A stretch of 64,000 bases of DNA, from positions 398,086-462,085 of the forward strand of contig NZ_VILB01000014.1 of the NCBI RefSeq assembly GCF_009712035.1, in the 5' to 3' direction. Of this stretch, positions 57,906 through 62,773 are shown in pieces. The stretch is from Anabaena sp. UHCC 0187 (GTDB taxonomy: Bacteria > Cyanobacteriota > Cyanobacteriia > Cyanobacteriales > Nostocaceae). Position 1 is the stretch's first letter; each line of letters begins with the position of its first letter. The translations under genes and the position numbers were made by a program. A model generated the notes under the pieces. It saw only the letters and a program-made list of their open reading frames with translations, was not told the origin of the DNA and made no database searches.

Positions 57906-59330
57906 ATGGCTGAAGAAAAGACCTATTTAGAACTTTCCCAAGGTGATAGCGGCTCTCATAAATTCTATGAAGTTGTTCTTAATGATACTGAATTGACTAT
58001 CCGTTATGGTCGAATTGGGGACACAGGACAAACCCAAAGCAAAACTTACCCCACTTCAGAAAAAGCACAAGCAGAAGCGCAGAAAAAAATTAAGGAAAAG
58101 CTGAAAAAAGGCTATGAACAAGCGGTTATGGGAGTGCGACAAAAACGCTCCATTACCCGTCGTCAAGTCAATAGCACTATTTCAACCGCAAAACAATCGC
58201 CAATTATTTGGAAATTTAACGCTAATTCTGCGGCTTTTGGGATTTTTGTAGACGGTGAACGTTGTTGGCTAGGAAACCAAGCTGGACAAGTATTTACACT
58301 GAATCATGCAGGTAAAGTTATCAATCAATTTAAACTTTCCGAAGGGGTAAAATGTTTAGTTGCTGATGATATTTGGATTTATGCTGGTTGTGATGATGGC
58401 AATGTCTACGACTTGACAGGAAAGTTACCACGAGTTGCTTACCAAATTGATGAAAATGTCGATATTTTCTGGTTAGATATTCATGATGGTTTGCTGGGAG
58501 TATCTGACGCTAAAGGTGGTGTCACGACGATTGGGCATGATGATGAATTGCAGTGGACTCGTTTAAGTCAAGGTTCTGCCGGTTGGATGGTTCGCTGTGA
58601 CCAAGAAGGAATTTATCATGGTCATAGTGCAGGTGTAACCATGTATGATCACAAAGAAGGCAGAATGCTTTGGCATCAAAAAACTGCTGGTTCTGTCTTA
58701 TTTGGTTGGCAAGAAGCATCTGTAGTTTATGCTGGTACTGGCGATCAAAAGGTTTATTCCTTTAGTAAAAAAGGTGAACCCGGTGCAGTTTATAAATGTG
58801 ATGCTGCTGTGTACTCCTGTGCTACAGCATTAGATGGTAAATATGTTTTTGCGGGTGATAATAGTTCTTCCATTTACTGTTTTAACCAAACAGGGGAAAG
58901 GTTATGGAAGCTAGGAACTGGTTGCGGTTCGGCTTTATCTATGCAATTTTTTGATAACCGCATATATATAGTGACAACTGATGGTTCTTTAGCTTGTATT
59001 GATGCCAGTGAAGCGGCTATTACTGCTGCTGAAATAGGGACAATTCCCGAAGCTACTATTATTAAAGCACCAAAAGGAGAGGGGGCTGCACCTTCCACCG
59101 TTCTGGAGACTACCACAGATACAAGTGCAGGTGTGATTGTTGAATGTTTCCGTCAGGGGAGTAAGTTAAGAATGCGGGTTGTTTCTCCTAACTATCACTC
59201 TGACTGGAAAGTGCAGTTTCCGAGAGATATTCGGGAAGAAGGACAACGTTATTGGGTTCAAGAAGTGCGAGAGTCTGCGAATGGAGGCTTTTACCGTGTC
59301 TATGGTGATATTAAAAAGTTAGTGGAATAG
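57906..59330 (+). CDS. WGR-domain protein with PQQ-like beta-propeller
   Basis: A 474-residue cytoplasmic protein. The N-terminal WGR domain (about 5-75) reads KFYEVVLNDTELTIRYGRIGDTGQTQSKTYPTSEKAQAEA; such domains are best known from PARP1-type and MolR-type proteins and bind nucleic acid or partner proteins. A beta-propeller of seven or so blades (about 95-375) follows, with repeated WLGNQAGQVFTL, IYAGCDDGNVYDL and VYAGTGDQKVYSF units. A final beta domain ends SNGGFYRVYGDIKKLVE. The role is unknown. Confidence 0.75.
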   Translation: MAEEKTYLELSQGDSGSHKFYEVVLNDTELTIRYGRIGDTGQTQSKTYPTSEKAQAEAQKKIKEKLKKGYEQAVMGVRQKRSITRRQVNSTISTAKQSPIIWKFNANSAAFGIFVDGERCWLGNQAGQVFTLNHAGKVINQFKLSEGVKCLVADDIWIYAGCDDGNVYDLTGKLPRVAYQIDENVDIFWLDIHDGLLGVSDAKGGVTTIGHDDELQWTRLSQGSAGWMVRCDQEGIYHGHSAGVTMYDHKEGRMLWHQKTAGSVLFGWQEASVVYAGTGDQKVYSFSKKGEPGAVYKCDAAVYSCATALDGKYVFAGDNSSSIYCFNQTGERLWKLGTGCGSALSMQFFDNRIYIVTTDGSLACIDASEAAITAAEIGTIPEATIIKAPKGEGAAPSTVLETTTDTSAGVIVECFRQGSKLRMRVVSPNYHSDWKVQFPRDIREEGQRYWVQEVRESANGGFYRVYGDIKKLVE

Positions 59331-59405: not shown

Positions 59406-60290
59406 TTACAATTTCTGCAATAATTCCTGAGTTAATTGCATAAAGGCTTTAGAACCGGCTGTATTCGGACTTAGTAAAGAAACTGGCATAAAACTATCAA
59501 CAGCTTTAGCAACATTCACATCAACTGGTATTTGGGCTTTACAGATTTTATCTACGCCAAAATCTTCAACAACTCGGTGCATTACCTGTTTATAATATCT
59601 GCCATTGAGAAGATTTGCGCTGGACATACTAAAGACAATTCCCAACATTTTAATATCTATTTTGGCTTCGTGTTCGTGACTGTCTTTTAATTGGCCAATA
59701 CGTCTTTCTAAAAGTTGAATTCCGACTACAGACAAAGGTTCTGGTCTAGCTGGGAGAATGTAGAAATCACTACTAGCCAAAGCACTGCGAGTCATGAGAT
59801 TATAACCGGGAGCGCAATCTAAAAGAATAAAATCATATTCATCTCGCACAGGTTTTAAAATATCTCTAATTAAGACTCTTTCAAAGCGATTCCAGATAGT
59901 TTCAAAATCCTGTTCTCCTAATGCCATTGATTGATTATGCAGCATTTCGGAAACCACAAATTCATCATATAAGTCAATATCTCCTGGCAATAAATCTAAT
60001 CCGGGCAGATTACACACTTGAGGTTGAATGATGTCATGAATAGTCAGTTTTGCCTCTGGTTCAGGGTTGATAATTTGATCTAGCAAATATCTAAATGTCT
60101 TTCGTTGTTTGCGACGTTTGGCAAAGTCTACTGGTGACATTAAACTCAGTGTGGCACTAATTTGACTATCTAAATCTAAAACAAGTACCTTTTTGCCGTG
60201 ATTTTTGGCTAAACAGGTGGCTATATTGACGGTAAGGGTGGTTTTACCGACTCCACCTTTCATGTTTGCGGTTGCAATTACATATCCCAT
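59406..60290 (-). CDS. ParA-family ATPase
   Basis: A 294-residue ParA/MinD-type ATPase with the deviant Walker A NMKGGVGKTTLTVNIATCLA at residues 9-28, Walker A' VLVLDLDSQISATLSL and Walker B DFILLDCAPGYNLMTRSAL. Such proteins move or place DNA or protein cargo along the nucleoid. No ParB gene is adjacent on its strand. It is divergent from a second ParA gene, with 370 bases between. The ATG at 60290 has AGAGGA upstream. Confidence 0.85.
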   Translation of the reverse strand: MGYVIATANMKGGVGKTTLTVNIATCLAKNHGKKVLVLDLDSQISATLSLMSPVDFAKRRKQRKTFRYLLDQIINPEPEAKLTIHDIIQPQVCNLPGLDLLPGDIDLYDEFVVSEMLHNQSMALGEQDFETIWNRFERVLIRDILKPVRDEYDFILLDCAPGYNLMTRSALASSDFYILPARPEPLSVVGIQLLERRIGQLKDSHEHEAKIDIKMLGIVFSMSSANLLNGRYYKQVMHRVVEDFGVDKICKAQIPVDVNVAKAVDSFMPVSLLSPNTAGSKAFMQLTQELLQKL

Positions 60291-60659
60291 TTTTAATTCC
60301 TCTACTGACGCTTTTCCATTGAGGTAGCGTACATATTATCCAATAGATTTTAACTTTGGTTAATTTAGCCTTTTGGGGGATGTGGAAAAGTTTTTTTACT
60401 TATGATATTTTGCACCAATGGACAAAAGCCGCAAAATTAATTGCCAACAACAAGCATAAACCTATTGAAACTGGCTAAAGCCCAAAATACTGCGATCATA
60501 TTCTGCTGGCTTTTATAAGTATATTTACTATATATATCTTACTTGCATAAATGATATGTATTGATTAATTCTAATAATGTTCATACTTGTTACTATGTCA
60601 TAATTATGCAAGTAAAATATTTTCATAGATGCGTACTACTTGATGAGAGGTAAAAAACA
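60291..60659. other. Divergent region between two ParA genes
   Basis: AT-rich, with an inverted repeat at 60539-60615 (listed separately). It should hold the promoters of both ParA genes and possibly a partition site. There is no gene. Confidence 0.45.
60539..60615. promoter_or_regulatory. 12-bp inverted repeat, candidate operator or parS-like site
   Basis: TTACTTGCATAA at 60539-60550 and its exact complement TTATGCAAGTAA at 60604-60615 enclose 53 AT-rich bases. It lies 44 bases before the start of the nuclease-ParA gene. ParA/ParB-type systems usually have such sites upstream of the operon, for autoregulation or segregation. This is inferred from position and symmetry only. Confidence 0.45.
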
Positions 60660-62033
60660 TTGCTTTTTAAGCCGGAATTGTGCCGTAATGAAAGTGAAGT
60701 TGAGAGCAAACTCATAGTTCAATATTTGCTACCACAGCTAGGGTATACCCCAGATACGTGGCATCAAGAAGTTGCTATGGGTAGCATTCGCTTGGATTTT
60801 TTGGCATTTGCAGCACAGTCTATTCCCTTTGTGTTGAATGCTGACTCACCCCTGAGTGTAGTCCTGGAGGCAAAAAGTCCCAAGCAAAATTTAAATCATC
60901 ACGTTCTCAGACTTAGGCATTATCTAACGAGTTTGAATGTGCGCTATGGTTTATTAACTAATGGTAAAGAAATTAGAATTTATCAAAAGTTACGAGATGA
61001 TGTTAAGTTGGTTTTTCAATGTGATGGTAATGATGTTGAAACAAAGATAGAGGAAATTGGGGGGTTAATTGGTAGGGAGAGTTTGAAAAATAGGCAGGTT
61101 AAGGAAAAGTTATCAGTTCAACTATCGGATTTAGAAACGAAGAAGGAGCATTCTATGAAAACAATTGCAATTTATCATCACAAGGGTGGAGTAGGTAAAA
61201 CAACAGTTGCTGTGAATTTAGCAGCAGCTTTAAGTAATCAAGGTAAAAAAGTTCTCTTGATTGATATTGATGCTCAAGCCAATACCACCTTTGCTACAGG
61301 TTTGATAAAGTTTGAATTTGAAGATGATGATGATTTGAAAGATCGCAATGTTTTTCATTTGCTAATTGCAGGTGAAGAAAAATCATTTTCTATACCTGAT
61401 ATTATTCGTAAATCAAATGGGTTTAATTCAACAGAAATAGATGTTATTCCTTCCCACATTACTTTAATTGAACGTCAACCACGTTTAGCTGTATCTTCTG
61501 CAAGCATAACTAGATTAGCTAAAAAATTAGCATTGGTTCAGGATAGTTATGATATTACTATAATTGATACTCCTCCTTCATTAGATTTATATGCTACAGC
61601 TTCTTTAACTGCTGCTGATTACCTAATTATTCCTTCAGACTTGAAGCCATTTTCTAACCAAGGTTTGTTAAGTGTGAAAAACTTCATCAAAAGAGAAATT
61701 AATGAAAATAGGGAAAATATGGGAAAACCACCTATTCAAATTATGGGTGTTCTGCCATCAAAAATTTCCAGTAATACTCAATATCTCAGGCATTCATTCC
61801 CACGCCATAGAGATTTAATCCCAGAACGCTATGAACTACCATTAATGGATAACATGATTACAGAAAGAGCAGCGTTGTCACATTGTATTAACAAAAATTT
61901 AATTGTAGGCAATCTAGAAATACCTGATCCTAAATCAATTTTTGATTTTGCTAAATATGAATCATCGGCCAGTGCGTCAGCTTTTGAATTTGAGTCTTTA
62001 GCTTTAGAAGTAGTTAGAAAAATGGAGATATAA
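60660..62033 (+). CDS. HsdR-N-like nuclease domain fused to a ParA-family ATPase
   Basis: A 457-residue fusion. Residues 1-125 resemble the type I restriction enzyme R-protein N-terminal domain (HSDR_N_2 type): NESEVESKLIVQYLLPQLGY, RLDFLAF with Asp46, VVLEAKS with Glu70 and Lys72, and YGLLTNGKEIRIYQ, so the PD-(D/E)XK residues look intact. Residues 166-457 are a ParA ATPase with YHHKGGVGKTTVAVNLAAAL, LLIDIDAQANTTFATG and ITIIDTPPSLDLYATASL. The TTG start has GAGAGG nine bases upstream. An internal ATG at 61155 has a near-ideal AAGGAG six bases upstream, so a ParA-only product is likely made too. A ParB-like gene follows directly. Confidence 0.78.
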   Translation: MLFKPELCRNESEVESKLIVQYLLPQLGYTPDTWHQEVAMGSIRLDFLAFAAQSIPFVLNADSPLSVVLEAKSPKQNLNHHVLRLRHYLTSLNVRYGLLTNGKEIRIYQKLRDDVKLVFQCDGNDVETKIEEIGGLIGRESLKNRQVKEKLSVQLSDLETKKEHSMKTIAIYHHKGGVGKTTVAVNLAAALSNQGKKVLLIDIDAQANTTFATGLIKFEFEDDDDLKDRNVFHLLIAGEEKSFSIPDIIRKSNGFNSTEIDVIPSHITLIERQPRLAVSSASITRLAKKLALVQDSYDITIIDTPPSLDLYATASLTAADYLIIPSDLKPFSNQGLLSVKNFIKREINENRENMGKPPIQIMGVLPSKISSNTQYLRHSFPRHRDLIPERYELPLMDNMITERAALSHCINKNLIVGNLEIPDPKSIFDFAKYESSASASAFEFESLALEVVRKMEI

Positions 62034-62035
62034 TC

Positions 62036-62773
62036 ATGACTAAATTTTTAATTGTAGAAATTGAAGGTGTAACTTCAAGCGTTCCTCGTTCTAATTTTGA
62101 AGACACTGATTTAGATATTTTTGCTGATTTAATATTAGAGTCTGGAGGAATATTAAAACCATTGGTACTCAAAAAAATTGGTTTTGAAAAATATGAAGTA
62201 ATTGATGGACATTTTGAATATTATGCTGCTGTTAGAGCTAGAGAAAAAAATCCTAATAGGGGAGAAATTGTTAATGCCTTTATTATCCCTGCTGAAAAAG
62301 AAGATGCAGTGTTAAATCAAGTTGCATTTCTTCAAAAGGTTGATACTCCTGACAACCAAGTTAAACCACCCAATAAAGAAACTGAAATTGCTAAATTACT
62401 TGATCAAAATAAACAAATGAATGCCAAAATAAACCAACTATTTTCGCAATTAGAAGCTGTTAATAAATCGCTCAATCAAATTAGTGTATCTATTGGAAAA
62501 TTTGCAACCTTCGATAGCCAAAATATAAACATTGATCAGAATGTAGAAACTCTTAATCAAAAAGTTGATCAAATTGCCACATATGTTGAGAAAATTCAGG
62601 AGAGTCAAAATCTGTCAATAAATACGAATAGCTTTACAATAGCTGTTAAAGAAAATCTTGACAGTATGACTAAAGATCAACTATTAGAACTTGCAAAACA
62701 AAAAAATATCAAGGTAGCAAAGGGAAAGAGAAAAGCTGAAATTATCAACGCTATTAAAAGTCAAGTAACCTGA
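62036..62773 (+). CDS. ParB-like N-terminal domain protein with coiled coil and SAP-like end
   Basis: A 245-residue protein two bases after the nuclease-ParA gene, with GGAGAT before its ATG. Residues about 5-90 resemble the ParB/Srx (ParB-N) fold: DLILESGGILKPLVLKKIG, EVIDGHFEYYAAVRAREKNP and NAFIIPAEKEDAVLNQVAFL. A long coiled coil follows (about 110-200). The last 35 residues, SMTKDQLLELAKQKNIKVAKGKRKAEIINAIK, form a SAP/Rho-N-like helix-extension-helix, a likely DNA-binding element. There is no classical ParB helix-turn-helix centre. It probably binds DNA and is the partner of the upstream ParA. Confidence 0.72.
   Translation: MTKFLIVEIEGVTSSVPRSNFEDTDLDIFADLILESGGILKPLVLKKIGFEKYEVIDGHFEYYAAVRAREKNPNRGEIVNAFIIPAEKEDAVLNQVAFLQKVDTPDNQVKPPNKETEIAKLLDQNKQMNAKINQLFSQLEAVNKSLNQISVSIGKFATFDSQNINIDQNVETLNQKVDQIATYVEKIQESQNLSINTNSFTIAVKENLDSMTKDQLLELAKQKNIKVAKGKRKAEIINAIKSQVT

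Follow-up and report, generated by a model that had tools for sequence, protein, structure and literature searches.

In a 64,000-nucleotide stretch of the genome of Anabaena sp. UHCC 0187 (Cyanobacteriales, Nostocaceae; RefSeq assembly GCF_009712035.1, contig NZ_VILB01000014.1, positions 398,086 to 462,085 of the forward strand; hereafter the window), we found a two-gene unit, here called the module, consisting of a nuclease-ParA fusion gene and a gene for a ParB-like partner. Comparison across genomes identifies the module as a conserved chromosomal unit of cyanobacteria, common in filamentous members, and within the family it is distributed almost exclusively with respect to X870, an FtsK-containing protein of a predicted anti-invader system. 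We tentatively propose, with a probability of roughly 0.42, that the module serves as a chromosomal ParA-based means of recognizing and cutting unwanted DNA which, in this family, can stand in for a HerA/FtsK-type anti-invader system. An earlier note drawn from the window's letters had reported the fusion as an architecture without a name, and no named system was found for it; beyond what that note contains, we describe below a start codon inside the fusion gene, a partner domain that is exchanged, a second subtype and a reciprocal replacement.

The fusion gene occupies positions 60660-62033 of the forward strand as a single frame of 457 amino acids (aa) that opens with a TTG codon, and an in-frame stop codon lies just upstream. 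This start was aligned in all eight upstream regions compared by eye and is preceded by GAGG in seven of them; the start at 60539 given in the earlier note lies in the upstream region, inside an inverted-repeat arm. Residues 166-457 (61155..62033) form a complete ParA ATPase with the signature Walker A motif (KGGVGKT), the ParA fold and a Pfam AAA_31 match (E 2e-50, residues 166-349). Residues 1-150 (60660..61109; the N domain) form an HsdR-N-type PD-(D/E)XK domain carrying Glu15, Asp46, Glu70 and Lys72, the last three of which had been correctly picked out beforehand. In the window protein, HSDR_N_2 (E 1.4e-4) and HSDR_N (E 2e-4) both scored under their Pfam cut-offs; HSDR_N_2 was found at E ≤ 0.01 in all 30 aligned relatives, the best at E 5.8e-7. 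Glu15, Glu70 and Lys72 were invariant among the 30 aligned fusions and Asp46 was Asp in 29, the single exception being a Gly in the fusion of locus L040. The ratio of nonsynonymous to synonymous substitution rates (dN/dS) of the N domain was 0.04-0.30 against five relatives. No SF2 helicase motor follows the nuclease domain in the window fusion, where ResIII reached only E 0.028, over the P-loop, and the remainder of the protein is ParA. Given that the structure model of the fusion is weak around Asp46 (predicted local distance difference test scores of 31-38) and that the fold search returned no nuclease row, its list being filled by ParA, the nuclease fold rests on sequence and not on structure comparison. 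The N-domain profile gave nine matches at E ≤ 1 among PDB sequences, none of them a nuclease, and the best, RPB_PLP3_R6 (E 3.6e-4), was taken as chance. In the alignment of 30 fusions, N-domain and ParA identities were loosely correlated (r 0.44, 435 pairs); one pair, with N domains 93% and ParA parts 53% identical, hints at domain exchange inside the fusion.

Relatives were sought in samples of the order (388 genomes), the phylum (291 genomes) and the family (118 genomes), in a named-genome set holding the best 80 of 213 relatives (Nostoc, Anabaena, Calothrix, Planktothrix and others), and in 39 chosen loci picked from the order-sample matches, half of which were taken because their match fell short of full length. 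With the whole fusion as query, 190 of the 388 order genomes matched at E ≤ 1e-30, a count that includes ParA-only copies and a distant subtype. The N-domain profile (E ≤ 1e-15) matched 41 of 291 phylum genomes, namely 32 in the order, eight elsewhere in the class and one in another class. Both domains shared one frame in 75 of the 80 named relatives, which rules out chance and bears out, by a check set beforehand, the expectation of the earlier note that homologues keep them together. The partner lay at most 100 bases from the end of the N-domain frame in 70 of the 80; the other ten loci comprised four split copies with the partner further on, three contig ends, one larger overlap and two loci without a detected partner. 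Among the 39 chosen loci, the partner was recovered in 37 by direct BLAST and in 38 by clustering. Genomes assembled into few contigs place the fusion on pieces several megabases long, which are the chromosome. Relatives of about 500 aa had been considered as possible bearers of different N-terminal domains, an idea that was rejected, as they have the same N domain and a longer linker. At locus L061 (8330-10943), the fusion is immediately preceded, on its own strand, by what looks like a duplicate: a ParA-only copy of 292 aa that is 76% identical. A 468-aa frame at L165:7093-8499, from a genome with intact X870, has a ParA 34% identical to that of the window and is possibly a third architecture.

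The fusion gene is predicted to yield both the full nuclease-ParA and a ParA free of the nuclease. Residue 166 lies directly ahead of the ParA fold and is encoded by a start codon in all 30 aligned fusions (28 ATG, one TTG and one GTG) and in all 75 fusions of the named set (70 ATG and five GTG). In the window this likely second start is the ATG at 61155, preceded on the same strand by a Shine-Dalgarno-like AGGAG (61144..61148). At least four Shine-Dalgarno bases precede residue 166 in 23 of 30 fusions, compared with 7 of 164 other internal Met codons; in the named set, at least four matching bases were present at 52 of 75, compared with 8 of 437, although the sequences are related and such counts are not independent. 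Furthermore, most ParA-only relatives start at the residue equivalent to 166.

The partner gene (62036..62773, forward strand) starts two bases after the fusion stop and encodes 245 aa, in agreement with the ParB-N-like protein with coiled coil and SAP-like end proposed earlier. Its ParB_N match (E 9e-6) scored 26.1 bits against a cut-off of 26.3, and 27.3 bits in a second scan, and the partner was assigned the ParB-CTPase fold. Long helices span residues 117-157 and 166-208 and are followed by a SAP/Rho_N-like C-terminal domain (62657..62764, forward strand; Rho_N E 5e-5, residues 208-243, with a score under its Pfam cut-off). This domain is the exchangeable part. Among 103 distinct partners of the window subtype, the C-terminus is HhH-like in 83, of a third type (YW) in ten, SAP-like in nine and none of these in one, and the partners of the window and of a sister genome are 95% identical at residues 1-105 and unrelated past approximately residue 137. 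By these alignments, the C-terminal domain is exchanged even between sister species. Compared with five relatives, residues 1-110 showed dN/dS of 0.26-0.53, and the second half was hardly alignable (dN/dS 0.42-0.77). The P-motif arginine of ParB (GxxR) is Arg in none of 35 partners and Glu in 32; since ParB mutants with this arginine changed to alanine lose nucleotide binding, according to PMC12704722, and since it is replaced in 35 of 35, canonical nucleotide binding by the partner is unlikely. The ParA-binding motif LG-R/K-GL, also taken from PMC12704722, was not found at the N-terminus of the window partner, the one inspected by eye. Two further ParB_N proteins of the window's genome scored 108 and 92 bits, so the partner is not the genome's only ParB-like gene.

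A second subtype was recognized at 12 loci (L129-L140), with a fusion of about 500 aa and the same layout. Over the aligned parts its N domain is 28-41% and its ParA 35-42% identical to those of the window. When scored with simple patterns, each of the two motifs (Asp and E-x-K) was recognized in 11 of the 12. The persistence of active-site residues in two subtypes with N domains only 28-41% identical supports the proposed DNA-cutting role. Its partner, judged by eye, is a different ParB-N-like protein, and the 11 C-termini classed were SAP-like in eight, YW in two and other in one.

Upstream of the fusion lies a divergent second ParA gene, ParA2 (59406..60290, reverse strand). The earlier note had listed it alongside the module; the gene is real, but it occurs in 116 of 118 family genomes, module or no module, and is hence not part of the module proper, serving here as a near-universal anchor of the locus. 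It is 28% identical to the fusion ParA over 228 aligned residues and belongs to another subfamily. In the named set, ParA2 lay divergently no more than 3 kb from the fusion at 36 of 80 loci (31 of the 70 whose flank was long enough), and it adjoined the second-subtype fusion in 7 of 12. An X280-P4-X870-ParA2 operon, with ParA2 at its end, occupies 13 of 16 loci without the module, all four genes being confirmed by similarity (one of these 13 genomes, G094, has a distant ParA match elsewhere); the remaining three hold remnants, a truncated X870 or nothing. X870 (L151:8634-11363) joins an RNase D-like 3'-5' exonuclease, a PDDEXK_1 (PD-(D/E)XK) nuclease and FtsK alpha and motor domains, and its FtsK part matches PADLOC SspH at E 8e-65. 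P4 is an AAA_16-type ATPase, perhaps of the Orc/CDC6 family, and X280 is weakly winged-helix (HTH_45 E 0.0013, under the cut-off). Sets of an Orc/CDC6-like ATPase, a winged-helix protein and an FtsK (with FtsK alpha and sometimes a 3'-5' exonuclease) are predicted anti-invader HerA/FtsK capture systems, as set out in part of PMC10853773. In many genomes the module sits between ParA2 and X870, antiparallel to ParA2, and at some loci remnants of X870 remain beside it: L065 has C-terminal pieces toward ParA2, L073 has N-terminal pieces at the opposite flank, and L129 and L240 have both. At L132 X870 and the fusion are both intact, and at L042 X870 is intact and the fusion split. Locus L040 (2229-15605) has the fusion beside an intact X280-P4-X870 set together with two more P4 genes and a second X280; both systems can thus cluster intact. 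In the window itself, the C-terminal part of a P4 gene (62854..64000, reverse strand; AAA_16-like, 668 aa, running past the window, full gene L078:40-2046) is a probable relic. Its P-loop is degenerate (GEDGSNKS), the other P4 proteins showing this segment keeping GxxGxGK[ST], and neither X870 nor X280 gave a match in the stretch searched around the locus. This P4 is approximately 39% identical to P4 of same-genus loci, at which ParA2 is 95% identical.

We then counted intact fusions of either subtype (including that of G449, which matches only to residue 373) and intact X870 (a frame of at least 849 aa) over the 118 family genomes. An intact fusion was present in 55 and an intact X870 in 56, with only three genomes holding both, 52 the module only, 53 X870 only and ten neither (Fisher p 1.7e-19, a value that takes no account of kinship). 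When each genus was represented by a single genome, the median p was 1.4e-8 and the worst 1.8e-6; within-genus shuffles gave a mean of 12.7 co-occurrences, with three or fewer in none of 20,000. Moreover, among the 32 genera represented by more than one genome, 15 include module-only as well as X870-only members. Two X870-bearing genomes (G407 and G431) have fusion pieces at contig ends that may be intact; counting them raised the genomes with both to five (p 1.9e-17, shuffles 0 of 20,000). Counting every subtype A trace as present gave 12 with both (p 1.1e-12, shuffles again 0 of 20,000). Eight genomes have a split, truncated, stop-bearing or ParA-only copy (G300, G359, G404, G409, G418, G422, G440 and G446), and X870 is intact in seven of them. 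Such a swap suggests a shared function of, or a conflict between, the module and the FtsK-type anti-invader system.

Taken with an apparently active restriction-type nuclease, an ATPase that positions DNA and a partner whose exchangeable ends probably bind DNA, the swap makes recognition and cutting of unwanted DNA appear the most economical reading. The partner would use its C-terminal domain (HhH, SAP or the third type), whose exchange fits a target-recognition part, to bind target DNA, and would engage ParA. The long and short products would probably form joint assemblies on DNA with ATP, so that the partner might bring a few HsdR-type nuclease domains to the target for a nick or a cut, and stimulated ATP hydrolysis might then free the complex. 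A fuller version, which we regard as somewhat unlikely, is a ParA-guided restriction in which nucleoid-bound ParA carries the nuclease on a minority of subunits, the ParB-like adaptor steers it by way of its exchangeable DNA-binding ends, and DNA treated as a replicon that is foreign or segregates wrongly is cut. The module would then do with ParA what the capture systems that it replaces do with FtsK, and the near-universal chromosomal ParA2 would serve both. If recognition and cutting are indeed its role, ParA/ParB DNA-moving machinery would also find and cut DNA, and a single polypeptide would link partition to restriction; the swap with a predicted anti-invader system suggests that DNA is guarded or policed in a manner not yet described. 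The near-exclusive swap is a natural experiment in which sister species carrying either system can be compared, and which would also test the role predicted for the FtsK capture systems; the two starts and the exchange of the partner domain lend themselves to direct tests.

Several observations weigh against recognition and cutting of unwanted DNA. Outside the family the exclusion is weaker: of 77 genomes with an X870 match (E ≤ 1e-90), 20 match the fusion as well (E ≤ 1e-30, not all intact). Because the module often lies in or beside X870, the exclusion may be partly physical, although disruption is less likely to be its sole cause, as X870 and a fusion stand intact next to each other at loci such as L132 and L040. 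That the FtsK system acts against invaders is in turn only predicted. No PADLOC 2.0 model fits over the length of a module protein; the partial stretches matched were the ParA P-loop (PDC-M28B E 1.9e-9) and, weakly, the nuclease domain (REase_MTase_IIG E 3.3e-4, Cas4 and mad2). No defence island was seen around the module, and no full-length relative emerged from plasmid, phage or viral-contig searches. The internal start lacks a Shine-Dalgarno sequence by the rule used in 4 of 30 fusions and could be retained from an ancestral stand-alone ParA. Finally, ParA occurs without the nuclease domain in 8 of the 39 chosen loci, seven of them with a detected partner, so that the nuclease is not required for every version. 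A separate upstream nuclease gene at these eight loci was considered and set aside, there being no sign of one by eye, with no domain search aimed at those genes.

The lineages carrying a ParA-partner pair without the nuclease make a strong rival of a chromosomal DNA-positioning or segregation role, in which the nuclease serves the cell's own DNA (for example, by resolving entangled copies or removing excess ones in a polyploid cell) or only aids DNA binding by ParA, as in IncC1. The chromosomal placement fits this account, as does the resemblance of the internal start to IncC1/IncC2 of RK2 (part of PMC2666795). The absence of an intact copy from 63 of 118 family genomes would be odd for a housekeeping function, and the retained active-site residues, the missing P-motif arginine and the exchanged partner C-terminus also speak against it; we hold it to be rather unlikely, if the best of the rivals. 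A selfish or exchange cassette that spreads into the ParA2/X870 locus by recombination or nuclease-assisted gene conversion, with loss of X870 as collateral damage, would explain why two subtypes use the same slot, antiparallel beside ParA2 in many genomes, and why X870 remnants flank the module on one or both sides. On the other hand, insertion should break X870, which is intact in seven of the eight genomes with damaged or ParA-only copies, and in several genomes that lack an intact X870 (e.g., G168, G235, G261 and G339) the module is far away from ParA2. Purifying selection acts on the N domain, on ParA and on partner residues 1-110, and no recombinase or long terminal repeats were noticed, in the course of work that included no systematic search for them; we consider such a cassette improbable. 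A catalytically dead N domain, kept for DNA binding or sensing as a structural part of ParA, would suit the sub-threshold HSDR_N_2 score, the weak model around Asp46 and the Gly at position 46 in one relative, but is still less probable with the motif residues so nearly invariant and retained in the distant subtype too.

Compared with known systems, the module shares with type I/IIG restriction enzymes (HSDR_N_2, HSDR_N) a PD-(D/E)XK domain with the same motif order, but has ParA where they have a helicase or methylase. No modification or specificity gene (HsdM/HsdS) was found among the neighbouring genes, to which that scan was confined. With ParABS and the IncC1/IncC2-KorB system of RK2 it has in common a ParA with signature Walker A, a same-operon partner with ParB-N fold and a predicted long and short ParA; for RK2, parts of PMC2666795 describe alternative starts of IncC1/IncC2, possible mixed complexes and an N-terminal extension that favours dimerisation and DNA binding. 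It differs in that its N-terminal part is a nuclease, it is chromosomal, its partner lacks the P-motif arginine and the LG-R/K-GL motif, and no clear set of scattered parS-like sites emerged with the one pattern tried. The HerA/FtsK capture systems (part of PMC10853773), including DndFGH, and compare SspFGH (part of PMC8092258), likewise combine a nuclease, an NTPase and a fast-evolving DNA-binding protein, and are reciprocally replaced by the module at the ParA2 locus; the module differs from them in that a HerA/FtsK translocase is absent from both its proteins, and ParA would act as the motor. The ParT/ParA pair of SCP2, which works independently of cytidine triphosphate (CTP; part of PMC12260392), resembles it in pairing ParA with a ParB-like partner, predicted in the module to be CTP-independent; ParT differs in having no apparent CTPase domain at all, and the abstract of that paper mentions no nuclease. 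No description of an HsdR-N/ParA fusion appeared in the literature searched, which consisted mainly of titles and abstract openings and excluded subscription journals and preprints.

Among the best 5000 plasmid records, none covered 80% of the fusion; the N domain matched 4 of 72,556 plasmid records at E ≤ 1e-3, none with 80% coverage, and the partner matched none at E ≤ 1e-4. On these searches a plasmid maintenance or addiction module was rejected as the principal reading. Of the 103 matching phage records, none covered 80% of the fusion and the N domain had two weak records (one phage record counted shared 60-80% identity with a portion of the fusion); in viral contigs, none of the 19 stretches that fitted the pattern encoded a relative, and a phage gene was likewise rejected. 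Named relatives of the N domain in the plasmid and phage collections included N-6 DNA methylase, HsdR-N and type IIG restriction-modification records. Hence, of the functions suggested in the earlier note, phage or plasmid defence gains indirect support from the module's swap with an FtsK system predicted to act against invaders, and maintenance of an element or plasmid loses support, given the chromosomal placement and the plasmid searches.

Upstream of the fusion, a 17-nt inverted repeat (60534-60550 and 60604-60620) is a possible operator or centromere. Among the eight aligned upstream regions it was seen by eye in the closest relative only. Sites with no or one mismatch in the own genome were the two arms here and one on contig C11, and a genome scan for scattered copies with one pattern gave 15 matches against 11 for a reversed control. 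Beyond ParA2, positions 57906-59330 encode a WGR domain joined to a beta-propeller-like repeat region.

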